Source of the DNA: Branchiostoma floridae
Lineage: Eukaryota; Chordata; Leptocardii; Amphioxiformes; Branchiostomatidae
DNA: 64,000 nucleotides
Reading direction: 5' to 3'
Assembly: GCF_000003815.2 (NCBI RefSeq)
Contig: NC_049995.1
Span: forward strand, 4,769,213-4,833,212
Shown: positions 18,801 through 59,915 of the stretch, one piece after another
Numbering within the stretch: the first letter of the stretch is position 1
Layout of the letters: every line of letters starts with the position of its first letter
The notes under the pieces: generated by a model
Told to the model about the DNA's origin: nothing
The model's database searches: none
Seen by the model: only the letters and a program-made list of their open reading frames with translations
Position numbers and translations under genes: made by a program

Positions 18801-19560
18801 AGGAGTTCTGTTCGAATTGCAAAACCTACTCCATATAGCCTTCTTTCATCCTCAGGGAGGCCTTTCCAGAAGAAGGTGTAACCTTCGCCTTCCTCAGTCA
18901 ACGAACCCTCCTCTGCTAGTCGTGTCTCTGAGAGTGCAGCTATGTCTATGTTGTACCTGCCTAATTCAGCTGCGATCAGTGCGGTACGCCGTTCAGGACA
19001 TTCAGATTGGTCATTGTCAAGTAATGTTCTTATATTCCAGCTTGCAAGTGTTAGGTTTATTCTCTTCTTCTTGTTGCGACCGCATATGTGGGACGCCACG
19101 ACAGGTACGGCCGCCTGCCCGTGGTAAGTTGGAGCGAACAATGTTTAGGCCACCTTTTCTAGGCCCTTCCCCAGCTTTGGGGTGGGCAGTGTGATCCCTG
19201 AAAAGGGCTGCCCAGACGCTTCAGGCGCTGCCTTCGGGGGCTGTCGCTCCTCTTCCAGCCATCCGACGACCATCAGCACTGAAGCCGCCACACGTGCAGG
19301 TTAAGAGCTGAGAGCTTCTGGTTGCGTCTCACCTGCTCCCGTCACTCCGCCCCTATCGCCGTGGGACTTGAGACTTGGTGCGGAAATGCTTCTGTGACAT
19401 GCGGTCGGTAGAAGTGAAGCATGTGCTTGAGAGGTTTTAAGTGTAGAGGGAGCGCACGAGCCCAATCCACTGTCTTGACCGTCCTGGCGAGTGCTCCAGT
19501 ACCACTCCCTGCCATTTACCAGTACCACTTAAATAAGCTGCCATTGTAATTTCAAAACTG
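15840..19560 (-). mobile_element. Non-LTR retrotransposon (LINE), apparently full ORF
   Basis: The element runs on the minus strand from about 19560 (5' region of some 420 bp upstream of the ORF) to just past the stop at 15857. It carries one uninterrupted ORF with endonuclease, reverse transcriptase and a C-terminal zinc finger. The exact ends and target duplication could not be fixed. It lies between gene A's candidate 5' UTR exon and its first coding exon, in the opposite orientation. Confidence 0.75.
15857..19141 (-). CDS. LINE ORF: EEP endonuclease, reverse transcriptase, C2H2 finger
   Basis: This is a 1094-residue polyprotein with no frameshift or stop. Residues about 30-280 form an endonuclease/exonuclease/phosphatase fold: LASWN (metal-binding Asn), ALSETR (catalytic Glu), GDFNARVG at 182-189 and TDH near 277 in place of the usual SDH. 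Residues about 500-830 are the reverse transcriptase: DLTKAFD at 659-665 and YADD at 780-783, the catalytic Asp motifs. A single zinc finger (CEECGRTCKSRIGLTSHQRT) starts at about 1069, near the end. Such proteins nick DNA and prime reverse transcription at the nick. The endonuclease resembles RTE/BovB-type proteins (often annotated as craniofacial development protein 2-like), but the clade was not tested. An intact frame suggests a young, possibly active copy. Confidence 0.93.
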   Translation of the reverse strand: MFAPTYHGQAAVPVVASHICGRNKKKRINLTLASWNIRTLLDNDQSECPERRTALIAAELGRYNIDIAALSETRLAEEGSLTEEGEGYTFFWKGLPEDERRLYGVGFAIRTELLKVAKEDPQGLSERIMTWRIPLQNNRYLTLISTYAPTLVASDAEKDSFYEALNTAVRAVPHADKLAILGDFNARVGNSHHLWQRVMGVHGVGKCNDNGLRLLSFCAEHDLVITNTLFQLRTMHKTTWMHPRSKRWHMLDYVLVRQLDRKDVKITRVMRGAQGWTDHRMVRTRLEIHIKKHARKNAHAGKLNTRALEDSGKREELQTALASRLSHALEDLTADTELLTTAWEAVASTLNTTARQVLGTTTKRNRDWFDEQREDIHTLLREQHSAHAAVLRSPSPANRARLAEVRSQAQREIRKMKNEWWTRLATEIQGYADKGNQQQFYCALKAAYGPRRGSNFPVRSADGTTLITEKAAILARWAEHYRQLLNRHTEVDDSVLDDVPKLPVLESLDDPPTLEEVQASVNSLKNNKAAGPDEVPGEILRHGGEAVALCLHSFVVACWNSGCVPQQWKDADLVSIYKKKGDRASCSNSRGISLLSSAGKVLSRIMLLRLIKAVAEEVLPESQCGFRKDRSTVDMIFVLRQVQEKCREQHQDLYMVFIDLTKAFDTVNRPLLWEVLGRFGCPDRFLRVLKALHDGARVRVIGGGGKSDPFEVCTGVRQGCVIAPVIFNLFLAAVMLAAKQRIKPEDCISLTYRLDGNLFNLRRLKAHTRVTQEDILELQYADDAAVTGSTAAGLQRNLNTLDDTYTRAGLLINCGKTEAMDLGRPGTEPAAFSIKDTALKSVPAFTYLGSVLSVTGDITDEVQRRIGLASSSFGRLASRVFLNKDLTIKTKVAVYKAICLSILLYASEAWTPYRRHIRMLEQFHTRCLQRILGLKWWHKVPHAEIRRRADTEPLETLLLQRQLRWAGHVIRMPGNRLPRHMLYGELTKGKRTVGGQHKRFKDNLKANLKKCGIPPQGLETSAADRNRWRQECAAGAARFTASFNQQYEERRRRRHLPTSNTSTSSNHICEECGRTCKSRIGLTSHQRTHAVNRT

Positions 19561-20786: not shown

Positions 20787-23700
20787 ATGGCCGACACGGA
20801 AATGGGAACAGGTCAAAGGTCATCCCAGCGGCAAGGTGAGAAAGTTTGTTTACTCAGTGTCAATAACAAACAGGTACAGGAAGTTTTGACTGTGCCCAGA
20901 CTTTCGATCGTGACTCAGTGGTCGCGGGAAACCTATATGTAATCCTTTCACTGGTTCTACACTGTTGTACACTGTAGATTTATTTCCTTTTGTAGTGGTT
21001 TTATTTCAGGGTAGGAGGAAAAATGAGCCTTTGGTTGGGTTTCAAGTTTGTGGTTGGAAAAGTTCCATATAGTACTGTAAATGCAGAAACTTTCGCGGTG
21101 GATTAATGTTCACGGTTTTCGCGACGGCCGCTGCACCGCAAATTTAAAACCACCGCGAACATTTAATCATGGCAGTAAGAGACTGCAGTGTATGGTGCTA
21201 CCGCGAAATTAAAACCACCGCGAAAAGTCCATTTCCCGCTACCGCGAAATTAAATCTCCGCGAAATTAAATGTATTTACAGTATACAAGGGAAATTCGCA
21301 ATGAAATTTGGATGAATGTGCCTTGCCATTAAAAAACTGTCACAGTTGGAAGAAAGTAAATGTAGTAACTGCAATGAAGAGGTCAATTAATGAAACCACT
21401 GCAAACGTTTCATGATTTACAGTAACTAACAATATAATCCTTGATCATATAGACCTGCCATTGGCAATTCTATTCTTTTCCCATTTTAAAAATGTATCCT
21501 AGCTTCCAGGGGATTTTAGTCACTAGCCCAACTTATGAGCACAAGAAAAGGTACCATTTTAAAGACAGAATTAAAGATCTCCAAATGTTGCCATACAATA
21601 TAAAAGTGAATTACTGTTATAAACAGAAAGACAGCCTTAAGTTTATCCAGTGTACCCTAGTTTCGGCCCACAATGGCCAGTTGCAAGCCCGCCCACCTAT
21701 TTAACTGAAACTTGAATTTGTCACTGAAACCTGGGGACAAAAAAATCCAACTTCTTTGTTGTACAACTTGTAGTCATGTAACTGTCTATGTTAGACAGTA
21801 ACAATTACATTTACATGGGGAAACCTTGGGGAACTAATATTTTTCATGACTTTGACCGTGATGACTTTTTTTTGTATGAAAATACATCCTATTTCAGTAT
21901 GTTGTACTACTAGACAGTACTACTAGTTGTGTATCAGACACTAGCAGATGATTATAGTCATTAAATTTTGTAAAGTGGGCTGTTTACTTTTACTAACTCA
22001 TGATCAGAAATGATTTCCACTTTATCTTATCATTTTAAATGGACAGGTAAGAAAACATCAACTTTTTTGTAGTTTCATAGATATTTATTTATTTATTTAT
22101 TGGTTTGGCTGCACCGAACACACAGCCAGGGCTGCCCAACTAGCCTATGGCTATTACAAAGGGCTAGCCCTGCTGACAAACACATAAACAATACAAATTT
22201 TAAAAAAAAAGAACATTTGTATGTACATGGTGTAGGATAACTTACATATCATCTAATCATAGATATTAAGGCATAATTATTTCTAAACAAGTTTTTGGTC
22301 AATTATCACGTTTTTTTATAAATCTTATAGTTGTAGTACATTATAATAGGGCCTGAAAGTCATCTTTGGAGACACGTTACCTAAATAGGAAATTATGAAA
22401 GTTGATGTTAACGCTAGTTTACCTTTATCCTTGGGGTAACCTATATCCATTGCTTTTCAAAGGTTGTTTCCAATTGTAATATTTTCAAAATAAAGCGGTT
22501 AGAACTCACATTTCGTCAGCATGATAGCTCTAAATTCCCTGCTTTTGAAAACAACGAATATAGGTTACACCATGGATAAAGGTGAACTAGCGTTACATAT
22601 TTTTTCTTCATTTAACAGCGTACATGGTGTGGTCGTGCCTACTGGTCCTACTGGCCACAACTACAGTCTTAGGGGAGGACAAAAACGAATCCTTTAGCAT
22701 CATCGTGAAAGAAGGAGAAGACGTCATTCTCAACAATTGTACGTCCCAGGACCAGGGCGTCATCTGGACGTACAAAAAGCCTGGCGCCGCGTCGTACACA
22801 CCGCAGTCGTGTCCGCAGGAGTGCGACAACCGTTGCCAGGGGCGCGATGACGTCATCAACCTTCCCGCGGTCAGTCGAACGTGCGGCGGGTCCTATCAGT
22901 ACGTCTCTTCTGGCGACGATGCAGGAATCCGTTGGAAGTGTACCTACCACTTACAAGTACACTGTGAGTTTTGTTTGCTACCCTTACAATTTTCAACTGA
23001 TCTTAAACTGTATTCACACGGGAAGTCATGTGCTTCTTAACCCTTATAGTTTCAGCCCTATAAAATGCTACCAGTGCCAGGGTTGGCCGCTGACCTCCAA
23101 AAAGAAACCCCTGAGCAAGGCCGAAGTCCCCAACTTCCAGGGCTCATGCACTACACGCTCCCAAAGCTGCTACTTTGGGGGAATACGCTATCCTGGATAT
23201 ATCCGGGCTCAGCACACAGGGCATGTATATGTGTGCCAGATATATCCGGGTTTGGCAGTTTAAGGTTTAAGATCAAACTTCAACAAAATTTATGTAAGAC
23301 CTAGGAAAAAAGTTTCCTGTTTCCAGGTACCAACCCTGGAAAAACCTGCCAACCCAAAATTTTTGTCAAACTTATGATCAATAAAAAACTTTCGTCAAAC
23401 TTATGATCAATAATTCCGATATTTTTCTGTCTGTAATCCACAGACTTGCCCCTCCCAGTCAACATCAGGAACCCCACCCCAGCTGTGTTCGAGAACGACC
23501 GCGTGGCCATCACGTGCCAAACTGACGACCTGGGGAATCCGCCAGCGAGTTTCACCAGTCCGGACTTTCCTCCAACGTCAGGTTCCGAGCCCAGCACGAC
23601 CCAAATTATCCAGTCTGCTAACAGGGATGATAACGGGACAACCTTCACTTGTACCCTTGAGTATGAAGGTCAAGATCAAAATGCTGAAGCCTTCACTCGG

Positions 23701-26700
23701 ACATATGAGGAGACCACCAGTCTTATTGTATACTGTAAGTTCAGACCTTCCTGTTTTTTAATTACTAAAAGTAGAACAGTTAAATTCAGCGCTCCCCATC
23801 TTTAAGATACAACAGTCCTACACTTTTCCGAAAGTAGATAGACTTTTGTTAGGAATGCTGCGACTATCAAAATACACAATAGATACAGATACTGTATATA
23901 TTTATATATATATATATATATATATAAGTGTAAGAGTGTGTGTGTGTGTGTATGAGTATGTATGTGTGTGTAGGGGTGTATGTGCATGTGTGTGTACATG
24001 TATAAAAAAAATACTGTTGCTCTAAAAGTTGACAATTTTTCCCCAGATCTTCCAAGAGAAGTCACCATAAAAGTCCACAATAACAACGCAACTCTGGAAG
24101 AAGGGGACAACGTCATCTTAGAATGCGTTTTCGGGGACTCTTATCCTCGACCCAGTGTAACGTGGTGGAAGAACGGCAGAAAACTGCCAGGAGAAACTTC
24201 AACGACCTTGGAGTTGCGTTCCTTGAAGGTCGTAGACAAAGGAGAGTACATGTGTGACACAACAGTGAATGCTCTTGGCCAAGAGAGATCTAAGAGAAGT
24301 GCAGCAGTGTTTCTGAATGTCACTGGTACTCCCAATACTGGAACGGGTAAGAATGAAAAGTCCTAATTTGTTGTAATTCATGTTTTATCAGACTGTAGAC
24401 TGATATAATTCTGAATCAACAATGTTACCTTCATGCACAACACATGCACTGACATGCTCCAATGTTGTGCCCTTGGGAAAGGCACTTTACACAAATTTCC
24501 TCACTTCACTCAAGTGGAAATGATTATAGTGTAATTGGACTAGTCCCAAGGGACTCATTTGCGCTTCCCGCATATTCATTACCCTTTGATATGTACTCAG
24601 TGGAGTTATGGACTGAAGTCCAGAATTAGAATGTTTTTCCATAATTAAAGTGATGCCTGTTGTACCTAGCCACAGTTAGGTTCATCCCTCGGATAGGATG
24701 TTAAATGGAGGTGCTGTGTCATGTAAAATAAACCTACAACATTCATCAAAAAGAGTAGGGGTGCTTCCTGGTGTGAGTGGACCAAATAAATCTGTCCGGA
24801 TATGCAGCTTGTACTTTTGAGAACAAACCTGGTGTGTTACGCCTAGATGTGGTTTACCAGGTACTACATGTGAATGGGTATACAAACAAATTCAGTGTTA
24901 TTCAAACAACACAGACTACCTCTGTCAATGTTCTTAATCGTAAACAAGAGAAATTGAAATTTTGATCACAATGAAAGTCATGTTGTAAATCTTTGTTTTG
25001 CTACTTTTATGCATAAAGGTTATGAAATTCTATTGGTAATGTATTCTACTTAAACTAAGTTAAAGTAAAAGTGCACGGGTGACTTTTTGCATTTTTCTGT
25101 AACTGCAGGTCCTCCAATTGTACCATCTGCACTTCCTTTCACCAGTGGCCTTCCAGTATCCACTATTGGCACCATAGCAGGTTTGCTTGACTGTTTTGTT
25201 TTGCCTAAGATAAGAAAGAACCACCTTAAGACATACATTCTAACATGTACACATCTGGTTCTGTTCTGAGACTGTGCACAGAGTACAAGCTGCAATTAAA
25301 ATTAAGATCATACTTTAAAGGTCTACTACGCAGTTTTTTGCGCTCAAATTTGAAATATTCTAGAACTAAGAAATCTCAGATTTACTACTAACTTTTTGAT
25401 ACTTTTTGACACTTTTGTGTCATTATTTCACGTTTGCAACGTAGAGAATTAGCCTACAAACATTTCGTCCTACGCACGCTGTAACTTGTTGACCCCCCTA
25501 GTTAGGCACTGGTGAGAATTCAAACAAGAATTAATCATCAACGGTTATTGGTCGGGAATCTCCGGTGAGTTCCGGGTGCGTGAAAGGTCACGGTGAACCA
25601 CGTGACCAATCTCCGGGTAGGCTCGGGCAGACTCGGGACTACTCGGATTTCGTCAGTGAAGAAACAAAATGGCTGAAACCCAGCGCGGGCGTGCAGATTC
25701 CCAGGTTTTCAAACGCGCTCGCACGGGGAAAATATCGACTCCTGACATGCCTTGAGTAGTGTTCCGTAACATGGTAGGCTTGATTCAACTAACTATATAA
25801 AGAAATGGCCGGAAAATGGATTTTTTGTTTTCAGTTTGAAGCGCAAATAACTGCGTAGTAGACCTTTAATATGGTTTGATACACTCGCACTGAAATGGAC
25901 TATTACTCCAGGGCTCTAGCCAGCGTCCGTCTTTCCGTCAATTGACGGAAATTCGCTGCGTCTGACGGAAAGGTTTTAAAACCAATCCGTCAACCTTGAC
26001 AGACAAAAATCCTTGTTGGAAGCTATAGGCGGCTGTTTGTTTTGCTATTGTTATTATTGTTGACGAAGTGTGTCGGCGCCCTTTCGCATACGATAATCTC
26101 ATTAAAAACCTGTTTTTCAAGGTCTCAGTTCAGTCTTTCTAACTCCTGGAATAGTGTTTTCGCGGTTTTCGCGACAATGGGAATTGGCTGACGGAAAAAA
26201 AATTCGAGCTGGCTAGAGCCCTGTATTACTCTAAGTGTGGGAGGATTTTTATCATGCTCGAGGTGTGGCTCTCCTCAAACACTGGACCTCTAACTTTATG
26301 TCCCATCCATAGGAGTGGTGTAATTTTTCCCAAGGGCACATTACATTCAGTGACTGCTAAGGATTTGAACCCAGCACCTTTAAGATTCTGACGTCAAGAC
26401 CATCATCATCATCTAAAGTCAACAACTCTAACGACAAGACTACCTTTCTTCTAGGTGTCGCAGGTGTTCTACTACTAGTTGTCATTGCTATAGCGTCAGT
26501 CATCTGTATACGCCAGAAAAGGAGGAACCCTGATCGTGGAGGTAGGTTTTCTGTTAATGTGTCACACTCTTTATAAGAAACAGTTATTGTAACAATAAGG
26601 CCACAGCAAGTAAATTTTATAGATGACATCAGCGCGCGCATCAATTTTCGCCTGATTTCAGAAGAGAAAAAAATTTTTTTTCTTCTGCAGGGATGGTTAA

Positions 26701-29700
26701 CATGACGATAAAGTACCAAAATGAGCAAATATGTTGTATTGCATTTATTGTAGCCTAATAATTGTACTTGTAGAAGTGACACTTGAGAGGTACCCAGGGC
26801 TGTAGTTGTAGAAATAAAACTTATTGGATAGTTGTAAAAGTGACACCAATATGGAAGCCATGAGTATGGTTACCAACTTTGTTGGTGATGCCAGTCTACC
26901 ACACTAGTGTCACTAGTACATGTCTTGAATACAGGAATGAATGCCTTGTTGGCTCTGATACCATGTTTTGTCCCTTTAATTCTTGTTACAACATTCATCA
27001 CAACTTTATGGTGCCTATTTTTGAAAATGTAGCCATCTTGTTTATTTTCACCCAATCTTGTTTTTTTTCGCCCTATCACACTATTTTTGCAGTCTGCAGA
27101 GTATGTCATCCATAGAATTAACTTGCTGTGGCCTAATTGACACATCAAATTCACTCTATTTTTGCACCACTTAACAATGTTGATATCAAGAACTTCATAT
27201 TGAACACTGTTAGCTAAATTGACTTTGTTGCTCTATTTCAGGTGAGGAGCAAATAGATGGAAGACACTCGAATGTTCGCTATCAGCCAAATGGAGGCTGC
27301 CAAATTGGACAAGATGTTGTAAGTTCACAAGATTGTCTAATAAAACTGAGAACTTGGCATTATAGGTTATCTGACATTCTACATGTCCTTTTGTTGTGCA
27401 CCAAAGATTTTGTTTGTGCACCTAAATCTAAGGTAAGTTGCGCCAGTGCACCTTGAGTTTTTATTGTCTTATTCAAAAGGACATTGTGGTTTATATCTTA
27501 AAGTTTGTAGAAAACTGTATATAGGCCCAAGTCAATTGTAAATGTCATACATGTAGATAGAAGTTATAAGAAAACAACTTACATGTACAACGCAGTAAGC
27601 ACATAATTAGAATTTTTCATTGCCAATGAAACATATTTTCTGTTTATTCTGCAGAGACCCTTGCTGGGCAACTCAATTGGTAACTATTTTTCTTCTGTAT
27701 GTTTTTTGCAATTATACTCACACAGACAATTGCCTTTAAGTTTATGATTTAACTGGTGAGACTATGGTGCTGTAACAGTGGGGTTCAAGTGCCGCCAAAC
27801 TGACCATGCCAAAGGGCCAGGCTTTTAGCTAGGATTTTAAAATAGGGAGTAGAAACTTATTGGTGAGTCACGGTAAGTGACTATTGTAGGGGGGTCCGGG
27901 GGCATCCACCTTCCATGTTGCAGAGTTTTTGATGATTTTAAGTTTAAAAAGTGCATTCTTAGGTATCCCAAGAGGCAAAAATACTGTTCCAGAGGTCACA
28001 GTAGAAGACTGTGACCACAGATGACCTGGTAGCATCCCTGGTCAATCAGAATTTCATGCTTGTCAGTCAATTTTCTCCCAGTGTAAGGGCGTCCAAGGGC
28101 ATCAAATTTCTTGTTATTCTAAGAAAAGTGCGTCCAGATGACGCGTTGACGCATGCCTGGCTAAAAGCCTGCAAAGGGCCCAACCTTCTGGTGTAGTGGT
28201 TGGCGGCATTGGGTTTGTGAGTTGGTAGCCCGGGTTTGGTACGGGTTCGAATCTCAGGAGCCAGGAGACTGTTTCTCAATGCCACAGATAGTAAAAATTT
28301 ATTTACAATTCTATAATAACATTAGACCAATTTCATCTTAAAATCTATCTTTAATGAATTAGCTGCTGATCAAGACTTCAGTCACAGATCATCTAACAGT
28401 TCACACAGCAACGGAGCGAAAGGACACAAAATCATCATTGAGTGCAGGGATGCAAAAATCTACCAATCACAAGCCTGTAAGTATCAACTGGTTATCATTA
28501 TTTAGACTTAAGTTCTTGGGACTAGGAGGACTTACACGCTGGTCCGTTGCTAGGCTATTCTTCTCGTTGCTATGCTAATAGGCCACACCCACAGGCGGGT
28601 CTGAAGTGCCGCACGGCATATATACAGAAAGCAGCAGAAGTGTTTCCCAAGATTACGATCGATTAGTTTATGATATAAATTAACAAAAGTATATACATGA
28701 TAAATGAAAATGTCAGCCTTGGAACGACGTAAAACTTAAAAAATGTCAGTGTAATACAGTGCTCAAATCCCCGCTTTCACGGAACGTGGCAAAAGTGACT
28801 TTCGGTCGCTGAACTCTGAACCCCACCGACTTTTTTCTCTCATTTACGTTGGAATCAAACATTTATACCATTATCTAAGCTCAAACTTTCTAAAATCAAT
28901 TTCTACTGTGTAGTTTTTTATGTCTGATACATTTAAAATCATGTTCCTATTTACCAATACTTTTTTCTCCCATAATTCCTGAACGCACCGATAGAAAAAC
29001 AAATACGAAAACCAAGATGGCGGGCGGCTTTTGCTCTTTCAAATGGAGTAGTTTTTGTTTCATTTTATCGGTAGGATCGGAAGATATCGGTCAAAATATG
29101 AAATGTGCACTTTATTCAGAGTTTTCACGCTGAAAAAGAGATGTTTTGAAGCTATAATGAGGCGGTGTTGGCATAGATGACAGAGCCTTATTAGCGCCCC
29201 TTTGTCTTCGCGGGCACTTTCATGCAAATCGCCCCTTTGTGTCTGTGCTGGGAGCGGGGTTTTCAACTGTAAATCAAGGTTACGGTCGCATTTGTCTCGT
29301 CACGAAAATGCAAATGAGCAAACGCCCGATTTCACGACCACGAAATTGGAATATGACCTGACGTTGCGACGCCGCACGTGAGTTGCCCAATCCCGGCACG
29401 CGAGGAAGCCCAGGACAGCGATCGTGCCCCACGACGTATGTCTATGATTCTCAAACTGACAACATACAATTGACGAATCGCTGGGAAAAATGATGCCCCA
29501 CTACGTAACGTTATGTCTATGATTCTCAAACTGACAACATACAATAATTGACGAATCGCTGGGAAAAATGATGCCCCACGACGTATGTCTATGATTCTCA
29601 AACTGACAACATACAATTGACGAATCGCTGGGGAAAATGATGCCCCACGACGTATGTCTATGATTCTCAAACTGACAACATACAATAATTGACGAATCGC

Positions 29701-32700
29701 TGGGAAAAATGATGCCCCACGACGTATGTCTATGATTCTCAAACTGACAACATACAATTGACGAATCGCTGGGAAAAATGATGCCCCACGACGTATAGCT
29801 ATGTCTATGATTCTCAAACTGACAACATACAATTGACGAATCGCTGGGAAAAATGATGCCCCACGACGTATGTCTATGATTCTCAAACTGACAACATACA
29901 ATTGACGAATCGCTGGGAAAAATGATGCCCCACGACGTATGTCTATGATTCTCAAACTGACAACATACAATTGACGAATCGCTGGGAAAAAATGATGCCC
30001 CACGACGTAACGTTATGTCTATGATTCTCAAACTGACAACATACAATAATTGACGAATCGCTGGGAAAAATGATGCCCCACGACGTATGTCTATGATTCT
30101 CAAACTGACAACAAACAATTGACGAATCGCTGGGAAAAATGATGCCCCACGACGTATGTCTATGATTCTCAAACTGACAACATACAATTGACGAATCGCT
30201 GGGAAAAATGATGCCCCACGACGTATGTCTATGATTCTCAAACTGACAACTTTGTCATCTGCCCTACTATGATTTTAAATCTAGTAACATCTCACAATGG
30301 TCCTTACAACCGGTGTCAGATTTTTTATCTAAGATCTGACATTGGCCCTTACACCATGTCAGGTTTTCAATCTAACATCTGACATTTGTCCTTACGCCAT
30401 GTCAGATTTTTAATCTAACACCTGACATTTTTCATATTATTGTCAGATTTCCTGTCTGACATCTGACAATCATCCTCCCAATGTAAGATTTCTAGTCTAA
30501 CATCTGACACTTTTTGTAGCACTGTCAGATTTTTTAATCAAACATCAAACATTCGTCTTCAAACAGTCAGATTATTTCAATCTAAAATCTGATTTAAAAA
30601 TCTGACATGGCGCAAGGACCAATGTCAGATGTTATATTAAAAACCTGACTTGGTGTAAGGACCAATGTCAGATGTTAGATAAAAAATCTGACTTGGTGTA
30701 AGGACCAATGTCAGATGTTAGATTAAAAACCTGACTTGGTGTAAGGACCAATGTCAGATGTTAGATTAAAAACCTGACTTGGTGTAAGGACCAATGTCAG
30801 ATGTTAGATTAAAAACCTGATACCGGTTGTAAGGACCATTGTCAGATGTTAGATGTTAAAATCATAGGTCATATTTTAGGTCATCATAGTAGGGCAGATG
30901 ACAGAATTAGTTCTTCGCATTGTCATATGTCACATATTCACATCATTACGGTTGTCAGATGTGAAATCAGATATGACAGAACTGATGTATGTTGTTAGTT
31001 TGAGAATCATAGACATACGTCGTGGGGCATCATTTTTCCCAGCGATTCGTCAATTGTATGTTGTCAGTTTGAGAATCATAGACATACGTCGTGGGGCATC
31101 ATTTTTCCCAGCGATTCGTCAATTATTGTATGTTGTCAGTTTGAGAATCATAGACATAACGTTACGTCGTGGGGCATCATTTTTCCCAGCGATTCGTCAA
31201 TTATTGTATGTTGTCAGTTTGAGAATCATAGACATACGTCGTGGGGCATCATTTTTCCCAGCGATTCGTCAATTCACCTCCTTGGTCAATTGTATGTTGT
31301 CAGTTTGAGAATCATAGACGTACGTCGTGGGGCATCATTTTTCCCAGCGATTCGTCAATTATTGTATGTTGTCGGTTTGAGAATCATAGACATAACGTTA
31401 CGTAGTGGGGCATCATTTTCCCCAGCGATTCGTCAATTGTATGTTGTCAGTTTGAGAATCATAGACATACGTCGTGGGGCACGATCGCTGTCCTGGGCTT
31501 CCTCGCGTGCCGGGATTGGGCAACTCACGTGCGGCGTCGCAACGTCAGGTCATATTCCAATTTCGTGTTCGTGAAACCGGGCGTTTGCTCATTTGCATTT
31601 TCGTGACGAGACAAATGCGACCGTAACCTAAATCAAAGTCTCTGAAATCGTTTGGTGCGTGTATTCAGTACTTTTGCCCTGTAAGTTACAAGCAAGAAAT
31701 TTTGGTCAAAGCTGCTTGTTTTGAGCTAAATTTGGACGAACCACGTTTTTTTTTCACTATCGTTCCGTAATTTGATTTGATCAGCAACTATATTCTGGGC
31801 ATCGGTTACATGAATCAGACTTAAGTTTTATTCCTCCTAAGTTGTGTGTGTTTTGTGTATGCTTGTGTATTTTTCCTTCTTTATTCTGTTTTTGGGTCGA
31901 GTTTTCGTGACCGCTTGGGAAATCAAACATGACGCCCGCCAGTTCATCTCAGGTCAATGGGATAGTCTACTGTATTGTGGTGGGAAATGTTGCGTGCGGT
32001 TTCGGATTGTTTTCTTTATTAAACTAAACACAACGTTAGTTAATTCATTCCAGGACTTTTTTTCAAAATGACCAGAACACATTTCAAAGAATATGTGACT
32101 CAATTAGATAATTGGTCTCAAAATAAATGGTGCCTGTGTTTTTTTAATGTACAACTCACCCATGCTGCTACAAATGATGTTACCCAAGCGGGATGATTGT
32201 TGTCAAGAACTGACGGCGTCGGTATTATAATTCGTAACAATTTACAAGGCACCTTTTTAAAAAGGTCTAAAATGCCAGTTCAGGATTACAAATAAACTTT
32301 ACGGTTGGTCTACAACCTGGGCAATGATTGGAGAGAAAAACATACAAACTGTACAAACTCAATGTAAACAAGAGAAATTGAAATTTTGATCACAATGAAA
32401 GTCATGTTGTAAATCTTTGTTTTGCTACTTTTATGCATAAAGGTTATGAAATTCCATTGGTAATGTATTCTACTTAAACTAAGTTAAAGTAAAAGTGCAC
32501 GGGTGACTTTTTGCATTTTTCTTTAACTGCAGGTCCTCCAATTGTACCATCTGCACTTCCTTTCACCAGTGGCCTTCCAGTATCCACTATTGGCACCATA
32601 GCAGATTTGCTTGACTGTTTTGTTTTGCCTAAGATAAGAAAGAACAACCTTAAGACATACATTCTAACATGTACACATCTGGTTCTGTTCTGAGACTGTG

Positions 32701-35700
32701 CACAGAGTACAAGCTGCAATTAAAATTAAGATCATACTTTAAAGGTCTACTACGCAGTTTTTTGTGCTCAAATTTGAAATATTCTAGAACTAAGAAATCT
32801 CAGATTTACTACTAACTTTTTGATACTTTTTGACACTTTTGTGTCATTATTTCACGTTTGCAACGTAGAGAATTAGCCTACAAACATTTCGTCCTACGCA
32901 CGCTGTAACTTGTTGACCCCCCTAGTTAGGCACTGGTGAGAATTCAAACAAGAATTAATCATCAACGGTTATTGGTCGGGAATCTCCGGTGAGTTCCGGG
33001 TGCGTGAAAGGTCACGGTGAACCACGTGACCAATCTCCGGGTAGGCTCGGGCAGACTCGGGACTACTCGGATTTCGTCAGTGAAGAAACAAAATGGCTGA
33101 AACCCAGCGCGGGCGTGCAGATTCCCAGGTTTTCAAACGCGCTCGCACGGGGAAAATATCGACTCCTGACATGCCTTGAGTAGTGTTCCGTAACATGGTA
33201 GGCTTGATTCAACTAACTATATAAAGAAATGGCCGGAAAATGGATTTTTTGTTTTCAGTTTGAAGCGCAAATAACTGCGTAGTAGACCTTTAATATGGTT
33301 TGATACACTCGCACTGAAATGGACTATTACTCCAGGGCTCTAGCCAGCGTCCGTCTTTCCGTCAATTGACGGAAATTCGCTGCGTCTGACGGAAAGGTTT
33401 TAAAACCAATCCGTCAACCTTGACAGACAAAAATCCTTGTTGGAAGCTATAGGCGGCTGTTTGTTTTGCTATTGTTATTATTGTTGACGAAGTGTGTCGG
33501 CGCCCTTTCGCATACGATAATCTCATTAAAAACCTGTTTTTCAAGGTCTCAGTTCAGTCTTTCTAACTCCTGGAATAGTGTATGAAAAACATACAAACTG
33601 GGACTGGCCATGGACAGTTTAATAAATGGTGTCTTCTATTTGAGCACAGTGGCGCTCGGTGCAACTTGGTGCAACCAATCCGTTCCAACTGTTGCGCTAT
33701 CTTGTTCTATTTTATCGGAAGGAACTTTCAACCCGTATCCTGTCAATAATTTGTCGCTGAAAAGTGGCTTGGTAAAGCTGTTTATATTACAAATACGTTC
33801 AGTTTGGAATATTTTACTACTACTAGCGCCACATTGAATCTTTTGCCGTCGAAACCCAGCACTAGTAAATCGTCCAACTTCACCAGCGGCGAGCTGACTG
33901 ATATATATATTTTTTTTGATGATGGAATATCTTTGGGTATTTTGACCGTCAGATAGACAAAACTATACTGAAAATCCTGTTGGTTTTGAGTCAGGCAACG
34001 AATTGGTATTGTTAAAACGTGCTAATGTAATAACAATTGGAACCAGCGGCAGGTAACGCATATGAATAGCGACGTTGACACAGGGGAGATATCGTAACAT
34101 AAACATTACTACGGCCCGCCTTTTGAATTTTTAACCAATCACGGACAGTTTCCAATGGAGACAACAGTGACTGGCATGTAATTATCATCAATATTCATGT
34201 CCCACAAGTGGGGATTTTTCATGCCCTTTTGGACCATCGTGTTATAAAAGAGATTGGAATGATAGCTTTTATATTTTACATCTTTTGTGTATCTATATTT
34301 CTAGGTTATTCTGTTGCAATGTATGAAAAGTTTCTACACATGATCAAGACATTTGAAAGGATGGTCTCTCATTTAACATTAACAACTGTAATGAAATCTA
34401 AACTTTAACTCAACTTTTACGAGCATTGACTATTATCTATATTATAAGGAATGTGATTTTTTTTCAATAATAAGCAGTTCCTAATCCTTTGCATCTAATA
34501 CAGGTGATGCAGAGTCCTTGGAAACCCCCTCAGAGCCATCCATGCAGCTGTCAACCCTTAGTCCATCCTCACTTCCGTATGACACCTCCAGTAGTGTGGA
34601 ACCTCGGAGTGATACCACCCCCAAGCGGGCCCCATCAGACCTCTCCCTGACCAATGAGAAGCTACCGTATCACCGCCACGAATCGAGCAACAACGACTTG
34701 TCCCAGGACACAAGAAGCCCTGACATGTCCCCAACATCCGAGAAGTTACTGTACCAAAAGGAGGACTCGAGCAGTGGCGGCTACCCAAAAACAGTAACAA
34801 GCACAGAAGGTGGCGACCACACTTCTTTCTCGCTTTCATCCAATCTCGAGGAAAGCACCAACCCAAAGCGAACTGCAGACTCCAGTGATCCACTGTCTCT
34901 CCAATCGCACTCTTCCTTGCCGGACAATTTGAATGTCGCTGATATGATAAGTATAGATAGCGACAACGCATCTAGGCAAACCAACTCAAACCCTAACATA
35001 CTGGACAACGGTACATCCAACATCACAGGTGTCCCCGCAGACAGTAATAACCTGAACAAACCAGTCAACAAACCACAACCGGACAAAAGCTCGGCAATCA
35101 AAAACCTGTCAGAGAGCTCGGAAAGTATGGAAGAGTCCATTGTACTTTTGGGGGCTGGAGGGACAGACCAAGAAGACCCGCCACCCATGAATGAAGATGT
35201 TGACTCTCTGAGGGAAAAAGGAGATGAGGTAAGAGCTTTTCATGCTTTGCTTATGCTTTGAATCAGGCAAAAAGGATGTTTGGTATGTCCCCATGTAGAA
35301 ACTTCAATTTCAAAGGTTAAGTTCTCTGAATCAGAAGATCTTGTAGACTTCAAATCTTTTAGAATATCTTAATTATAAATTCCTACAGTCCAGTATGAAG
35401 TGTATAGTTTTGTTTAACATTATTTATAGTATTTTACATACTGCATTATTTAAGACTGTATACGTACATGTAGACAAAAACATTTTTCTAGATCTAGCTA
35501 TTGATAACTTTTATTACTCTTTAATGTATTTCTACAGGTGGCCATCACTATAGACCTGATGTTGAAGAAGACACCACTGAAGACAGACCACCTTGGCGTT
35601 TCTTTTCTTAGGTTGACAGAACTGTATGTAAACCTGTCATACGCTGGCCACGGCCTCAATGATTGGAAAATGTTTGCTCATAAACTTGGTAAGTTCTGCC

Positions 35701-36696
35701 AGCATTTCTTAACACATGCTCTATACCTTGATGCTTGTTTTACTTCCATTATTCTTAGTGACTCTGCAACAGACCTGAATCAGCTTACAGATGTGCCCTA
35801 TGTGGCAGGGACTGTCATTCTCTTATAGGACTGTTTAGCCACAGTCGACGCTGTAGGGCGGATATCAATTAGGATTTTATCATGCTCAATATTGACCGAA
35901 GGAGGCCATATAGCTTAGTGACATACATAATGAAAGTAAGATTTAGATTATTGTGAAATCTGTTTTTCAATAATGGCATATTGATTCTAATAGCAACATG
36001 ATTCACACTGTTAAAAAGTTGATGTGACTTGGTCTTGAAGAAATTGAGGTATTCATTTCTAAATTTCTTCTCCTTAAAAGTTGCATGACCCATACACAAC
36101 ATGAATAAAATCAAACAAAGACAATGTAATTATAATCATTACCATTCTTTCTGCAGTATTGTACTGGACTGATTTTTCCATCAACTCTTTCAAACCACAT
36201 GGTGCATTGGGCATCGCCCATCTCTGTTTCAGCAGCCCAGGGCCACACAACTTTGTGCAATCACTACAACAAGGGGCTAGTCCACTGCCTGGTAGTAGTG
36301 TGTGCTCGAGTACCTTACTTTTTTCCAACTGATTTCTAAACAGAGAAAGCAGTACATTGTGTATGTACCATTCTTATGTCAATGGTACATGGCATGATAC
36401 GGCCAAGGATCGAACTCACTACCTACCAAATGCAAAGCAAACACTCTACCCACTCAGCACTGATGTATCAACCCTAGTATTCTTTTATCTTTCCAGGTTT
36501 GGACAGTCTGCATATCCAGGTGATTGACGGTTGTAGCTCCAAGCACAACTTAAAGCCAGCAGAGATTGTTGTCTACCACTGGCAGCGCATGGCAGACAGA
36601 GAGGGCAGCATTCCTTGTAGCAAAGAGAAACTAAGAGAGATTCTGGAGGAAATTGAAAGGCATGACTTAATTGCCATATTAGATGGGGAACAATAA
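20787..36696 (+). CDS. Gene A: three-Ig transmembrane receptor with Death domain
   Basis: Model: coding exons 20787-20835, 22619-22963, 23444-23734, 24047-24346, 25109-25180, 26455-26541, 27242-27318, 27655-27679, 28363-28476, 34504-35228, 35538-35688, 36497-36696. The total is 2436 nt, 811 residues, all joins in frame. The start is the second ATG of its exon (MADTEMGTGQRSSQRQ); the first, at 20758, is out of frame. Met19 before a hydrophobic signal-like run is the alternative start. Residues about 36-131 form an Ig-like domain with six Cys. About 132-228 is an Ig domain with TDDLGNPP, and 229-328 an I-set-like Ig with VTWWKNG. A TM segment lies near 353-372 (GVLLLVVIAIASVIC), then Arg/Lys, then a Ser/Thr-rich tail with two EKL-x-Y repeats and NVADMIS. 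A Death domain occupies about 737-808 (DWKMFAHKLGL to ERHDLIAIL). Death domains recruit adaptors in apoptosis or NF-kB signalling; here that role is inferred. No orthologue name is claimed. Confidence 0.85.
21073..21283. mobile_element. MITE, TACTGTAAATGCA family, second copy
   Basis: Starts TACTGTAAATGCA, ends TGTATTTACAGTA. The interior has CCGCGAAATTAAAACCACCG-type words and is in the opposite orientation to the copy at 5924-6135. It lies in the first coding intron of gene A. Confidence 0.8.
22080..22215 (-). repeat. Dispersed repeat tail, probably LINE 3' end
   Basis: A (TTTA)n run at the left edge, then a conserved-looking stretch (GGTTTGGCTGCACCGAACAC, GCCCAACTAGCCTATGGCTA) ending in A-rich sequence. 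The TTTA run read on the minus strand would be the (TAAA)n tail of a retroelement. The family is not identified. Confidence 0.4.
22409..22595. mobile_element. MITE ending 23 bases before a gene A exon
   Basis: The left arm TAACGCTAGTTTACCTTTAT (22409) pairs with the right arm ATAAAGGTGAACTAGCGTTA (ending 22595). Arms are about 40 bases with small differences. Only the 23-base tract ATATTTTTTCTTCATTTAACAG plus one base separates it from the exon starting at 22619, so the branch-point region of that intron lies in or at the edge of the MITE. Confidence 0.8.
23881..24000. repeat. (TA)n and (TG)n microsatellites in gene A intron
   Basis: TA-rich run at about 23899-23926 followed by TG-rich tracts to 23998, some 45 bases upstream of the third Ig exon acceptor. 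Confidence 0.85.
24425..24740 (+). repeat. SINE with conserved core, forward, in gene A intron
   Basis: CCCTTGGGAAAGGCACTTTA at about 24471 and TTCCTCACTTCACTC near 24498 precede the core word GATAGGATGTTAAATGGAGG near 24693-24715. These are the same blocks seen reversed at 905-1190, 6356-6612 and 26236-26402. The tRNA-like head is weak. Confidence 0.55.
24940..26157 (+). repeat. Source copy of a 1218-bp segmental duplication in gene A
   Basis: This segment is repeated without indels at 32364-33581 (constant offset 7424) with only about five substitutions noticed. It contains the 72-bp exon 25109-25180, coding for the stalk before the membrane segment, and most of the hAT-type MITE 25909-26223. 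Its position in the collinear gene shows this is the original. Confidence 0.93.
25909..26223. mobile_element. Complete hAT-type MITE with 8-bp TSD TATTACTC
   Basis: The left terminus CAGGGCTCTAGCCAGC and right terminus GCTGGCTAGAGCCCTG are perfect inverted repeats. TATTACTC flanks both ends (25901-25908, 26224-26231), the 8-base duplication of hAT elements. The 315-bp interior contains repeated CCGTCAA/TTGACGG words. The copy at 33333-33581 is cut off inside the element. Confidence 0.9.
26236..26402 (-). repeat. SINE with conserved core, reverse, in gene A intron
   Basis: Minus-strand copy of the core (TTTGAGGAGAGCCACACCTC at about 26279-26260) with the CCTTGGGAAAAATTAC block and a degraded tRNA-like end. 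It directly follows the hAT-type MITE's target duplication. Confidence 0.6.
26599..27133. mobile_element. MITE with TAA target duplication, GGCCACAGC termini
   Basis: The left terminus GGCCACAGCAAGTAAATTTT pairs with the right terminus AATTAACTTGCTGTGGCC; arms extend through ATAGATGACAT. TAA flanks both ends (26596-26598, 27134-27136). Termini and duplication resemble those at 19601-19973 and 59916-60680, suggesting one Harbinger-like group. It is in a gene A intron. Confidence 0.82.
27818..28171. mobile_element. hAT-type MITE with 8-bp TSD CAAAGGGC
   Basis: The left end CAGGCTTTTAGCTAGG and right end CCTGGCTAAAAGCCTG are inverted repeats with one base shifted. CAAAGGGC flanks both sides (27810-27817, 28172-28179). 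The interior (354 bp) includes GGGGGGTCCGGGGGCATCCA. Termini resemble those of the MITE at 25909-26223. Confidence 0.85.
28190..28275 (+). repeat. tRNA-like SINE head
   Basis: A box (TGGTGTAGTGGTTGGCG) and B box (GGTTCGAATCTC) lie about 45 bases apart in the right order. The sequence does not close an acceptor stem, so this is a SINE promoter region and not a tRNA gene. It lies in the gene A intron before exon 28363. Confidence 0.6.
28477..29277. other. Gene A intron, no further exon seen
   Basis: No coding exon with matching phase was found between the splice donor at 28477 and the foldback element. Confidence 0.5.
29278..31628. mobile_element. Complete foldback transposon with 8-bp TSD TAAATCAA
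   Basis: This 2351-bp element lies inside the 6-kb gene A intron. It has outer arms of about 150 bp (GGTTACGGTCGCATTTGTCT from 29278, complementary end at 31628) and then facing minisatellite arrays built on a 69-bp unit (CTATGATTCTCAAACTGACA with GAATCGCTGGGAAAAATGAT): about 12 units on the left (29430-30250) and 7 on the right (30985-31490). The core (30250-30985) is itself inverted and made of TCAGATGTTAGATTAAAAAC words. TAAATCAA flanks both sides (29270-29277, 31629-31636). The plan matches Foldback-type elements with long, internally repetitive inverted arms. No transposase ORF is present, so movement would need a partner. ORFs of 223 and 246 codons are translations of the 69-bp array. 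Confidence 0.92.
31637..32363. other. Gene A intron between foldback element and duplicated segment
   Basis: No exon or element termini recognised. Confidence 0.5.
32364..33581 (+). repeat. Inserted copy of the 1218-bp gene A segment
   Basis: Indel-free copy of 24940-26157. Differences seen include T to C in the word ATTCTATTGG, G to T in the polypyrimidine tract before the exon (TTCTGTAAC to TTCTTTAAC), G to A at 32605, C to A in GAACCACC and C to T in TTGCGCTC. The near identity means the duplication is recent. It ends inside the hAT-type MITE, so the MITE was already present when it was copied. Confidence 0.93.
32533..32604 (+). pseudogene. Duplicated stalk exon with destroyed splice donor
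   Basis: This is a copy of the gene A exon 25109-25180. The acceptor (AACTGCAG) is kept, and the coding sequence looks unchanged except at its end, where the donor GT has become AT (CAG/GTTTGC in the source, CAG/ATTTGC here). Without the donor the exon cannot splice normally. It also lies out of order, after the membrane and part of the cytoplasmic exons. It is a dead exon copy, or at most a cryptic or terminal exon. Confidence 0.85.
33582..34503. other. Gene A intron, right part
   Basis: No family features. It ends with the acceptor TCTAATACAG of the large cytoplasmic exon. Confidence 0.5.
36150..36475 (-). repeat. tRNA-derived SINE, reverse, in last gene A intron
   Basis: At the right end the minus strand shows an A-box-like GTGCTGAGTGGGTAGAGTG and a B box GAGTTCGATCCTTGG (about 36468-36388), followed by a body that includes TGGTACATACACAATGTACT. 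It ends some 20 bases upstream of the final exon acceptor. Confidence 0.6.
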
Positions 36697-40648: not shown

Positions 40649-43600
40649 ATGGCTATAAAAACGAAACCTGATTCGTCCTGGAATTGCCAAAGGGGGTGTG
40701 TGAGTCATCAAGGTAGGTTTGGTTCTTAGTAAATGGTGTATTTATGATTAATATTGTAATCTAGTTTAACGGTAATATTTGTAATTGTGACATATTTTAT
40801 CATAGATTAAACACGAAGATGCGACCGAACCGTGTAAATATGACTGTGTAGACCACAGGAAGAATAGCCTCTTATGAGGCCAATTGTGAATCTAAAAAAA
40901 CTCAACTCAACCGAACGTTTAAATATATAACATCCATTGGCATAATACCGGTCGGTTTACTGCAATTTCTCAAGCAATGCTAATTTGGCAAATGATCAAC
41001 GCATCATTTTCTCCAGTTACATGTTGCTGTTACAGCTTACCTTTGCCACTTCTTCTGTGTAAATTATTTTGTCTCTCTGGTCCTGCTAAAAACATAATAT
41101 CGTAATTGGAACACACCGCGGAATTGCACGGAGAACGGGCGCGTGGTTGGAAGGGGGTGCACTATACCGGTCGAACGAAACACGGCACAATTAACTGCCG
41201 CTATGTACCTTTATACATCCTCTGTTGTTCCTTTCTTTCCTGTTAGTAGTTGCACAAAACAAAAATCTGCATGAGCATACAAAAAGTCATGAGAAAATGG
41301 GCGTATACTGACAAGAATTTTCATTTAATTTTGATCCGTCACAACCGCTATGACGTAAAACTTTACTGCTGGCCGTAGCATTAAAAATGGCGGGAAAATG
41401 GCGGCGTACGTTCAATTTGACCCATTCAGCCGTAGATCCGGGCGATAATGCAACGGTTCCTCACACTTTTACACGAGTTGTAGGTCACCAAAAGAAATTC
41501 AAGATTGCTGTTGAATCATGCTCGTCTTGTGCCGTGAGGACATGTGATTATTATCTACAAATCTGGCGCTGAACGTGACAGTGTGTTTGTCCCACGACGA
41601 GCTCGCCTGCCCCGAAAATGACCTGAAAACTTTTGGCCTTGTTGTCTTCGTATGCATTGCTATCGATGCTTTGTAAATGATGTATTGGACACCTAGATGT
41701 CTGAAATGTGCATACCTCAGAAATAACTATTGTTGCATGTGTAGATCTCTTTAAGTTCCACTATTTTTAATCGACCGGTATAAGGCTTATGACCGGTATT
41801 ATGCCAATGCATGTTACATTGCATGAATGACCGGTTTATAACTTCTCCCAACAGTGATCCTGGTCATCCTTGCTCTGTTGCCTGCTATTGTACAATCCCG
41901 GATTGCTTACAGCCAGCATCATCTGGTTGTACAAGAAGGGGAGAATGTGGTATTTGATCAGTGCCCATCGCCACCAGACTCAGACGGTCACTGGGGATAT
42001 AAAAGGAGTCTTGAGACCAAGGATTATAGCGAATGTTGGGGAAAGTGTAGCACGTGTTCGTCACGTGTACTCATCATCTCTGACGTCATCAGAAGTTGTG
42101 GTGGATATTATCAGTACAACACGTCACCGGATAGCAATGGCACAAGATGGAGATGTGATTTACAGTTGGACGTATACTGTAAGTAAACGTTCTGGCTAAA
42201 AACAATATGGCTGCGCCCATGAGGGCCAACCAAAACAAGAGAGTTTTAACACACGTCAAACCTGAAATTCATACACTAAATTCCGGAATTTCATATACTT
42301 CCAGCATTTGGAAGTGATTATGAACGACCTTCAACATAAATCATGACAATCAGGACATCGTTTGCATAATAAGGAATTTCTAGAATAGCTTTTTATGTCA
42401 AGATAAAATGTTATACTTTAGGCGAAAAACTCTACTTCCAGGGTTTGTCACGTAACTTAAGCCGTTCATGTTAGAATGGAATCAAAAGTTTCTCGCATAG
42501 TTTTAAAATAGAGAATTCAGTACCTATAAATAATTTCACGAAAGTCCCCATCTTTCTTACGATATCATGCCTATACCTCACGTTATAATAATTGGTCGTG
42601 GAGGAACTTTCATGAATATGATTGAATGATCGATATATATATATGTTTCATCCGGTAATTTTTTGTTTTGATTATGGTGCATGTAATATTCTTATCATAT
42701 GAATTTATAGTAAAAATTGGTATTTCCATCCCAGACCCTCCGAGCCCAATTCATATAGACAATCCTCAACCTCAGGTGTTTGAGGGTGATGACGTCACGA
42801 TGACGTGTAGCACTGATGACGTAGGCAACCCTCCTGGTAACTTCACCGGACGACAGTTTCCTAAAACCATGGGAACTCAAAACTCCACCAGTCTGCGTCT
42901 GCAAGCTACGAGGGAGCAGGACGGAGAAGAAATCGTTTGTGAATTTCAGTACAGACGCTTCAACCAAACGAGGAGTAACACGACGACTACAATGTTAACA
43001 GTGTTCTGTGAGTAATTATTGTTTTGTGAGGAATTCAGATTTCGTGAGAAATTCGTGAAAATAATATTATAGTAGAAAACAATCTGAACCGTTCAATTTC
43101 TTTCTTCAATTTAAACTGTTATGTCGAAAGTTTTCCAACGAAAACAAAACAACTTTTAGAAAAATATGGTAATCACATTAAATGTAGTCATTAAAATGTT
43201 TATTTATTTTTACCAAAACAGATTATATATTACATCATGACACTATTCACAGATAACAGCTACACTAATGTACAGTTTTTATTTCAAACAGATCTTCCCG
43301 AAACTGTGTCAATCAAAGAACAACATTCCGTTACCACATTCAACGTTGGTGACAACGTTACACTGCAGTGCATCATGGGAAGCTCTAATCCCGACGTCCC
43401 TACAATATCATGGTGGAAGGATGACGTCATATTACGAGGCGAAACTTTCAGAATCTTTTCGAAAAACTCTGTTAGCGTGCAAGATAGCGGGAAGTACAAA
43501 TGTAAAGCTACCATCCAAGCTCTCGGTCAACAGAAATCCAAGGAAAGCAAAGGAGTTTACATCAGTGTGACGTCACCAGGTGAGTTCATCCATGAACGTT

Positions 43601-45235
43601 TTGACATTACTTTTTTAATGACTCTGATAATAATCGTAACACATTTTGCATCCGCTTCCCATTCCAATTAAGAAAGTACTTAATTGTTTTTAAGGAAACA
43701 GACTATAGGTGAACTTCTTATTACAATCATTATCGTGAATTCCTTACTATCCAGTTCCGTTCATGCATTTCCTGCGTATACAACTTTGAACCCTAGCCAA
43801 GCCAATCTTCCGCTGTAGAACACATGACATCCTCGTGAATTTGAACCCGTACCATCTCCACTTCCTGCCACTCATCAGTTGAAACGACTTGAAACCTAAG
43901 CCAATTCTGGACCCAGCCGGCCAGCGGAAACAAACATAAACACACACCACGACAACTTGTGACAAACAGACAAACCTTAAAGATTGCCCACGTTTTTCAC
44001 CTTAGTAACAGTCATTAACCAATATTTATGTCCATCCCATAGACCCAACCCATGGGACGCCATCTTCGAATACTGGAGCAATCGCGCTGTTGACAACGAT
44101 AGATCTCATCATCATAGGCGGTGCCGCCTTTGTTGTCATGGTGATCATCCTCGTTGTAACAGCACTCCTTTGTTTCTGGAAACGGCGAGAGTCACGAGAC
44201 AATAGAACACAGACTCTTCAAGCCAACGGTATGGATTACGCTGATTATTATGCATTTTTGATATAATTTTTACAGTCAATGTGATTTTATAATGGTAGAA
44301 AGAAATGAAAATATTGCAGAAATAGATTTCACCATCTTTTTCTAGGTTCTTTCCATCTTGTGCCATCCCGTCCCACGGATGACGTCATGGTCCCCGGAAG
44401 TGACCGAGGTAACCTTGATGGTGAAGAATTCGAACCCCAGCCTCCTCCGTACTCAAGTAAGTTCCTCAAAGTTGCATTCAAGGTTTGGGCTGATGGGGTT
44501 TAGGTTTACACACCGTAATTGTCTTATAAATGATAGCACGTAGAATAATACATACACTTACAAACACACACACACACACACATGCAAGAACAAACGCTTG
44601 GTTTACTTTTGATATACTTTTCTTCAACTTGCCCGTTAAAAAAACGTAACCAAAGCTTGTTCAGAACACGAGATATCAGACCCGGAGTTCTGCTGCAGTA
44701 CCAAGAGAAGCCGCTAGGCGTCACAAAATCTATTCATTTGTTGTTTACACACCAAGTTTGAGACCAATCCATCCAGCCGTTCATGAATAAACTTAAGCTT
44801 GTTGACGAACAGACAGACTCGATTGAAAACATAACCTCCATGACATACTTCATGGGGGTAATAACGGTGAAAACCGTACTTCTATTTGCTGCAGGAGTTA
44901 ACCCTGACCCGAGGTTCCCCACCACACAGACGTGTCCGTGGGCAGACGGAGCCTGTCACCTTCCACTGGTGACACATTATCAGTCACCCGGAACAACTTT
45001 AACACTCAACGAAGAAACCAATAACGGTACCATTCCTTCAGCTGCAGCATCTGTACCGTCTGTAACAGAGGGAACCAGGCCGAAGGTGACGGGTGATGGT
45101 CCGACCCCGAGGAGTGTGGAGGACTCCAGTATACCGGATAAACCCGGCTCCTTGCGGTCTCATCCTGAGTTACATGTACCCCGGCCTCTTCCTGCCAACC
45201 TTACCATCAGCGATATGATCAGCGAAGGCTCTTAA
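40649..45235 (+). CDS. Gene B: three-Ig transmembrane protein, paralogue of gene A
   Basis: Model: coding exons 40649-40712, 41855-42178, 42735-43007, 43292-43579, 44043-44228, 44346-44456, 44895-45235. The total is 1587 nt, 528 residues, all in frame and with the same phase-1 joins as gene A's ectodomain. The first exon (MAIKTKPDSS) is inferred from a strong acceptor, a donor and matching phase; the rest is firm. After a hydrophobic signal-like run come a six-Cys Ig-like domain (IRSCGGYYQY and TRWRC), an Ig domain with TDDVGNPPGNFT, and an Ig with ISWWKDD. A TM segment lies near 335-360, then WKRR. The tail is short, with a PPPY (PPxY) motif near 413 and a C-terminus NLTISDMISEGS. There is no Death domain. 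The tail matches gene A up to the DMIS motif and then stops. Likely a cell-surface receptor or adhesion protein; ligand unknown. Confidence 0.8.
44640..44880 (-). repeat. Dispersed repeat with GTCT-type word, reverse
   Basis: Minus-strand copy of the family at 1766-2060: TCATGGAGGTTATGTTTTCA, then GTCTGTCTGTTCGTCAACAA, ACGGCTGGATGGATTGGTCT and CGCCTAGCGGCTTCTCTTGG in the same order. It sits just upstream of gene B's last exon acceptor (44894). Confidence 0.7.
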
Positions 45236-59446: not shown

Positions 59447-59915
59447 CTGTAGAACATGTACAAGACATAGATGATTTTTAACTGTCTCAAATTTTGAGTT
59501 TAAATAGTGTATTTTAATTGTGAATTCAAATTGTGAATTTCCTGTGATGCCATAGTCCTAACCATATACAGATGTTAGTGATACTCCCCTTTTAGCCTTC
59601 GTCCCTAATCAATCCCAGCTATGTCCCTCCCAAAAGGAGTTATTGGTCATCCCCATTCCATGGGGTCAGCTGACCAGCTGTCCATGGGCGATGCCACATA
59701 ATTTTTAGCAAGGGGGTGTTGATCTGCAAGGTTGCATTACCTGAAAGTACTCTTAGGACTGGAAGTCTAAAATTGCCCTACTTCTTTGATACTTACAAAA
59801 ACTACTTACGATCAAAAATCTATACTAAACTATTAAAACGATCTTGAGTTACAGATGCAACACGCACACATACATAACCAAAAACAGTACCCCTGAACAT
59901 TTTTTCCGGAGGTAA
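59447..59915. other. Upstream of gene C's first visible exon
   Basis: The TTCTACAG acceptor implies an earlier exon at higher coordinates on the minus strand, but no signal-peptide exon could be recognised between here and 64000. Confidence 0.5.

Follow-up and report, generated by a model that had tools for sequence, protein, structure and literature searches.

A gene in the Branchiostoma floridae genome probably encodes a type I receptor in which immunoglobulin-like (Ig) domains outside the cell are wired directly to a Death domain inside it. The gene (gene A) is located in a stretch of 64,000 nt (GCF_000003815.2, NC_049995.1:4,769,213-4,833,212, forward strand), referred to as the window. 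Its likely product consists of a signal peptide, a V-set-like and two further Ig domains, a transmembrane (TM) segment, a tail rich in Ser and, at the C-terminus, a Death domain, and would be one member of a small Ig death receptor family that signals via ligand-clustered Death domains. As predicted from sequence, the family known here comprises the Death-bearing genes A, C and D, all on one contig, and the Death-less tandem gene B.

Rebuilt from the genomic letters alone, gene A comprises 12 exons (20787-36696, + strand). All 11 introns have GT-AG borders and compatible phases, and the joined frame yields 811 aa plus stop, confirming the original prediction of twelve exons joining in frame. 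The exons and the large ninth intron are as follows:

20787..20835 (+), exon 1: possible start MADTEMGTGQRSSQRQ; GT donor, in frame with exon 2
22619..22963 (+), exon 2: signal-like run (ATG at 22624) and Ig1, Cys-rich and V-set-like; from hydropathy and homology to Ig1 of genes B and C
23444..23734 (+), exon 3: Ig2; Pfam Ig_2, E 2e-6, 28.4 bits versus a curated cut-off of 27
24047..24346 (+), exon 4: Ig3 of the Ig_3/I-set type; Pfam Ig_3, E 1.2e-12
25109..25180 (+), exon 5: extracellular stalk; in-frame join, GT-AG
26455..26541 (+), exon 6: TM segment and basic stop-transfer; from hydropathy
27242..27318 (+), exon 7: juxtamembrane tail; in-frame join
27655..27679 (+), exon 8: mini-exon of 25 nt; in-frame join
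28363..28476 (+), exon 9: tail; in-frame join
28477..34503 (+), intron 9: 6 kb, with an inverted-repeat block and a 1.2-kb duplicate
34504..35228 (+), exon 10: Ser-rich tail (~20 % Ser), carrying the SLxSH..LPxNLxxxDMIS motif common to gene B
35538..35688 (+), exon 11: segment preceding the Death domain and first part of the latter; exon border LG|L as in genes C and D
36497..36696 (+), exon 12: remainder of the Death domain and stop; from Pfam Death (exons 11-12) and homology to genes C and D

Exon 10 (725 nt) is free of stops in the used frame, whereas the two alternative forward frames contain 9 and 17. Hydropathy of the protein is highest in the TM segment (mean 2.98 over the 19 residues starting at 353) and next highest in the signal-like run (mean 1.79, starting at 17), in accord with the proposed order of signal-like run, single TM segment and long Ser-rich tail ahead of the Death domain. 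The start of the 811 residues in exon 1 agrees with the in-frame join to exon 2; translation may actually begin with residue 19, the Met encoded at 22624 in exon 2, just before the signal-like run, since inspection by eye of the sequences of genes C and D suggests the same start. Exon 1 may represent 5' UTR or an N-terminal extension.

Gene B, the tandem neighbour of gene A and absent from the original prediction, was delineated as follows:

41855..45235 (+), gene B, tandem paralogue: three Ig domains, TM segment and tail; ends before any Death domain
41855-42178, 42735-43007 and 43292-43579 (+), Ig exons, like those of gene A
44043-44228 (+), TM exon; from hydropathy
44346-44456 (+), short exon between TM and tail exons
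44895-45235 (+), tail exon, ending with LPANLTISDMISEGS and then stop

The five introns of gene B each measure less than 600 nt. No Death domain was found in gene B, the tail motif forming its very C-terminus. The identified exons of gene B do not include a first exon; an A ending such an exon 1 would, judged by eye, create a Met equivalent to that in exon 2 of gene A. Further features observed in the window are:

15857-19144 (-), open reading frame of 1095 aa resembling non-LTR retrotransposons (RVT_1, E 2e-33; Exo_endo_phos, E 6e-13)
48562-48957 and 51039-51566 (-), 7tm_2 exons (E 9e-11 and 1e-11), perhaps of an adhesion-type GPCR
57312-57656 (-), SUEL lectin exon (E 1e-16), which may be part of the 7tm_2 gene
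58932-59477 (-), C-type lectin exon (Lectin_C, E 1e-19)

Relatives of gene A were searched for in the entire genome (513 Mb, 431 contigs; the window is on contig C17), with match counts for large families representing lower bounds. The gene A protein from residue 19 onward (793 aa) retrieved at least 27 matches at E ≤0.01 (57 of 78 candidates scored). Eleven of these are gene A's own exons, one being a duplicated exon 5, three are the Ig exons of gene B, two are relatives of exon 12 elsewhere on contig C17, and the other 11 are scattered Ig domains of 33-44 % identity (E 4e-5 or worse). Plasmid DNA searched with exon 10 of gene A gave no match. The two relatives of exon 12 define gene C (C17:12.43 Mb, 42 % identity, E 1.6e-8), located 7.6 Mb from gene A, and gene D (C17:17.42 Mb, 52 % identity, E 8e-8). 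This genome-wide query (E up to 0.01) retrieved no Ig exons of gene C or D. In local tblastn searches, gene A matched gene C at exon 12 (E 1e-11), an Ig3-like region (E 1e-4) and an Ig1-like region (E 0.075), and gene D at exon 12 (E 1e-12) and an Ig-like piece (E 0.28).

The models of genes C and D, whose open frames and splice borders were determined by a combination of scripted and visual reading, both start with a signal-like run, followed by Ig exons, one TM-like and one short juxtamembrane exon, a tail exon of ~0.9 kb and two Death exons, with the Ig, TM-like and tail exons located upstream of the Death exons on the same strand. No convincing mini-exons were found between the juxtamembrane and tail exons, so that continuity of the two models in frame is presumed at this point. 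Gene A has three Ig domains, the gene C model two and the gene D model one or two. Besides a V-set match, the ectodomain of gene C contains an Ig_3 match (E 9e-12). That of gene D has one Ig_3 match (E 1e-7), where PKD likewise passes its threshold (27.8 versus 23.5 bits), and no Pfam match in the region preceding it.

Two of the three predicted Ig domains of gene A, Ig2 and Ig3, were recovered by Pfam, the best match in the whole protein being Ig_3 on Ig3 (E 3e-14, 53.6 bits versus a cut-off of 30); by these ectodomain profile matches gene A is a member of the immunoglobulin superfamily. For Ig1, the assignment is supported through homology. The Ig1 exon in isolation has no Pfam match at E up to 10, and by eye the usual position of the second Cys is absent. 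It is 35 % identical to Ig1 of gene B and matches the first Ig region of gene C (hhalign 93 %, E 3e-7), itself the V-set match (E 3e-6). Judged by these comparisons, Ig1 is homologous in genes A, B and C.

The Death domain (PF00531, curated cut-off 22.6 bits) was matched by gene A at E 0.01 in the whole protein and at E 3.3e-4 in the last 119 residues (exons 11-12), the latter with 21.1 bits, i.e., 1.5 bits under the cut-off. Compared as a single sequence with solved Death structures, gene A matched RIPK1 best (E 0.16). Folding of the exon 12 fragment (65 residues, no alignment) resulted in three short strands and one helix at a mean pLDDT of 49, which speaks neither for nor against a Death fold. 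Judged from gene A by itself, a Death domain would be probable and not settled. Its homologues in genes C and D pass the cut-off, both as isolated domains (34.3 and 30.3 bits, respectively) and scanned together with their tails (30.3 and 26.1 bits). The Death exons of genes A, C and D are split at the identical point (LG|L), and 39 columns are invariant across the three domains. A profile built from the three aligned with eight further Death domains of the genome (hhalign 89 %, E 2e-6); among solved structures, the Death domains of RIPK1 were closest by sequence, the match being weak (E 0.003). The C-terminal Death domain that had been placed at residues 737-808 is supported by the match of exons 11-12 and by these homologues; by eye, the domain appears to start further upstream, in exon 11, before residue 737.

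Death domains are abundant in this genome, with at least 150 exceeding the cut-off (150 of 588 candidates scored, 150 of 150 passing). Distant from the window, dense clusters of Death matches at C17:18.36-18.90 Mb and on contig C215 suggest tandem arrays of Death genes. The Death query of gene D retrieved six matches at E ≤1, namely the two Death exons each of genes D and C, exon 12 of gene A and one weak match on contig C16 (E 0.48). Conversely, the three Ig domains of gene B retrieved 11 matches at E ≤0.01, consisting of the three gene B exons, the three gene A exons, Ig3 of gene C and four scattered Ig domains. Here, Ig3 of gene C (E 5e-8) ranked next after gene A, the scattered domains following at E 1e-4 or worse. 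Searches started from the Ig side and from the Death side thus converge on gene C, a result difficult to account for if the two halves of A and C were parts of separate genes. Ig exons of gene D were absent from the matches of the gene B query (genome-wide, E up to 0.01); for gene D, the link between Ig and Death is suggested by position and Pfam matches. Neither this weaker Ig evidence for gene D nor the failure of the gene A query to retrieve the Ig exons of genes C and D affects the link between genes A, B and C, on which the reading as a family is based.

A further shared element is found in the tails. A motif of the form PxSLxS....P..L..DMIS (34504-35228 in gene A, 44895-45235 in gene B) precedes the Death domain in genes A, C and D. 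Exon 10 of gene A carries LPDNLNVADMIS, and genes C and D contain LDEMIS and LEDMIS, respectively, each after EPHSL. In shuffling experiments with the tails, the real score was reached in 10 of 1000 shuffles for the pair A-B and in none of 1000 for B-D as well as C-D. Tail similarity was not significant for A-C (262/1000), A-D (251/1000) and B-C (102/1000). The link between the tails accordingly relies on the motif and the C-D pair, not on overall similarity.

Death domains can act in receptors clustered by ligand, where they stack with those of an adaptor and trigger caspase or NF-kB signalling. If expressed, gene A would operate by the same principle: its Ig domains would bind a ligand on a partner cell, on a microbe or in solution, binding would cluster the receptors, and the clustered Death domains would nucleate homotypic assembly with a cytosolic Death adaptor (FADD-, RIPK1- or MyD88-like), so that caspases would be activated or NF-kB signalling set off. 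Gene B could recognise that ligand or a similar one without Death output and so serve as decoy or brake. RIPK1 as the nearest solved Death domain leans weakly towards an output in cell death or inflammation. The best matches of the ectodomain to solved structures, obtained mostly with Ig3 and partly with Ig2, are DSCAM, CD22, CD166 and SYG-2, i.e., adhesion-type or Siglec chains of the Ig superfamily, and make a cell-bound ligand plausible. These matches also favour another, less likely though serious reading of gene A as a receptor for adhesion or guidance, whose Death domain would form a scaffold module involved in neither killing nor inflammation. Such a function has precedents, as Death domains are not always apoptotic (e.g., in ankyrins and UNC5). 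It is countered by the proximity to the RIPK1 structures, weak as this match is, and a Cys-rich, diverging ectodomain together with a Death-less tandem copy would suit immune receptors at least equally well. The receptor may have the immune or cell-death role originally proposed.

The long intron 9 separates the Ig-encoding from the Death-encoding exons. More than half of it is occupied by two elements. An inverted-repeat block (29277-31629) contains tandem units mostly 69-75 bp apart, its longest arms measuring 348 nt at 98 % complementarity. The region 24933-26157 (~1.2 kb) is copied at 32358-33581 with 99.4 % identity. The copy includes exon 5 with the donor changed from GGTTT to GATTT, and should, having lost the GT, not be spliced; on these grounds, alternative splicing to this exon 5 copy (near 32.5 kb) was ruled out. 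The repeat block and the recent duplication, as well as a Met within exon 10 at which a separate protein could begin, would fit a misjoining of two adjacent genes, one for an Ig adhesion receptor (exons 1-9) and one for a tail-Death protein (exons 10-12), on either side of a repeat-rich 6-kb intron. This is nevertheless very improbable: exon 10 opens at an in-phase acceptor, with no in-frame ATG between the latter and the stop before it, gene B links a motif-bearing tail exon to similar Ig exons across short introns, the succession Ig-TM-tail-Death is found again in genes C and D, and both the Ig-only and the Death query arrive at gene C. In view of the paralogues, the join of 28476 to 34504 is very probably real. 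Hardly credible is decay of gene A into a pseudogene with a repeat-invaded intron, a notion prompted by the repeat load of intron 9 and the donor-less exon 5 duplicate, since open frames and splice sites are preserved in all 12 exons and the damaged exon 5 is the duplicate rather than the exon in use.

The combination of an Ig ectodomain with a Death domain in the absence of a TNFR, ZU5/UPA or kinase module had been proposed as the distinguishing trait of gene A; none of these modules was matched by Pfam, and two paralogues show the same Ig-TM-tail-Death arrangement. Known death-domain surface receptors used for comparison read TNF-like, neurotrophin or netrin ligands. UNC5 proteins are type I netrin receptors that, as predicted for gene A, carry extracellular Ig domains and end in an intracellular Death domain, and additionally possess thrombospondin (TSP1) repeats and a ZU5-UPA module before the Death domain. 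Membership in this family was rejected, with no TSP1 or ZU5-UPA in gene A (811 aa, E ≤10), in the ectodomains of genes B, C and D (E ≤0.05) or in the tails of genes C and D (E ≤1). The TNFR-superfamily death receptors Fas, TNFR1 and p75NTR have the single-pass topology and the cytosolic Death domain predicted for gene A, the ectodomain of which is of Ig type instead; no TNFR Cys-rich repeat was detected in gene A (Pfam, E up to 10), which excludes it from this superfamily. The IL-1R family (three Ig domains in IL-1R) and invertebrate IgTIR proteins combine an Ig ectodomain, one TM segment and a homotypic signalling domain in the tail. Gene A follows the same plan with Death in place of TIR, and was not assigned to this group, having no TIR match (Pfam, E up to 10). 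MALT1/paracaspase likewise unites Death and Ig domains, in a cytosolic protein with N-terminal Death and a caspase-like domain; in contrast, gene A has a signal-like run, a TM segment and a C-terminal Death domain, and no protease match (Pfam, E up to 10), so that this membership was dismissed as well. The main survey of immune genes is reportedly that by Huang et al. 2008.

In the literature searched (listed titles and beginnings of abstracts, and main-text passages), no single-pass lancelet receptor with Ig and Death domains was found. Passages of one study describe amphioxus hybrids of the types TNFR-caspase, death-caspase, death-NACHT, DED-NACHT and TIR-SAM, and regard amphioxus as seemingly unique in the scale of such domain rearrangement (PMC2575513). 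Like gene A, these hybrids join receptor and death modules, and no Ig-Death receptor is named among them in these passages (PMC2575513). The apoptosis repertoire of amphioxus is stated to be expanded (PMC2246300) and its caspase family is the subject of another report (PMC3196919); the word immunoglobulin is absent from the main texts of both. Neurotrophin receptors and p75NTR are the topic of PMC2772990. Among the dispensable genes of two lancelets, Death was the most over-represented domain according to a passage of PMC12373286. In oysters, passages on TRADD-N expansions mention one group with Cys-rich ectodomain, TM segment and cytosolic DED, and another with immunoglobulin repeats and DED-TRADD-N, an HEPN RNase at the start and no TM mentioned (PMC8195603); these groups carry DED and TRADD-N, versus the terminal Death domain of gene A.

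By its predicted architecture, the gene A family would be a variant among death receptors and not a separate kind of system. It is conceivable, as a tentative extension, that the family arose in lancelets by combining a conserved tail-Death half with diverging Ig halves and a Death-less tandem decoy, constituting a paired activating/decoy system for immunity or self-recognition that kills without TNFR or TIR. If the proposed receptor is real, Ig recognition wired straight to a Death domain would represent a further cell-surface route to cell death in a chordate outgroup, and comparison with the Death-less tandem gene B would be a straightforward genetic means of gauging the contribution of the Death domain.
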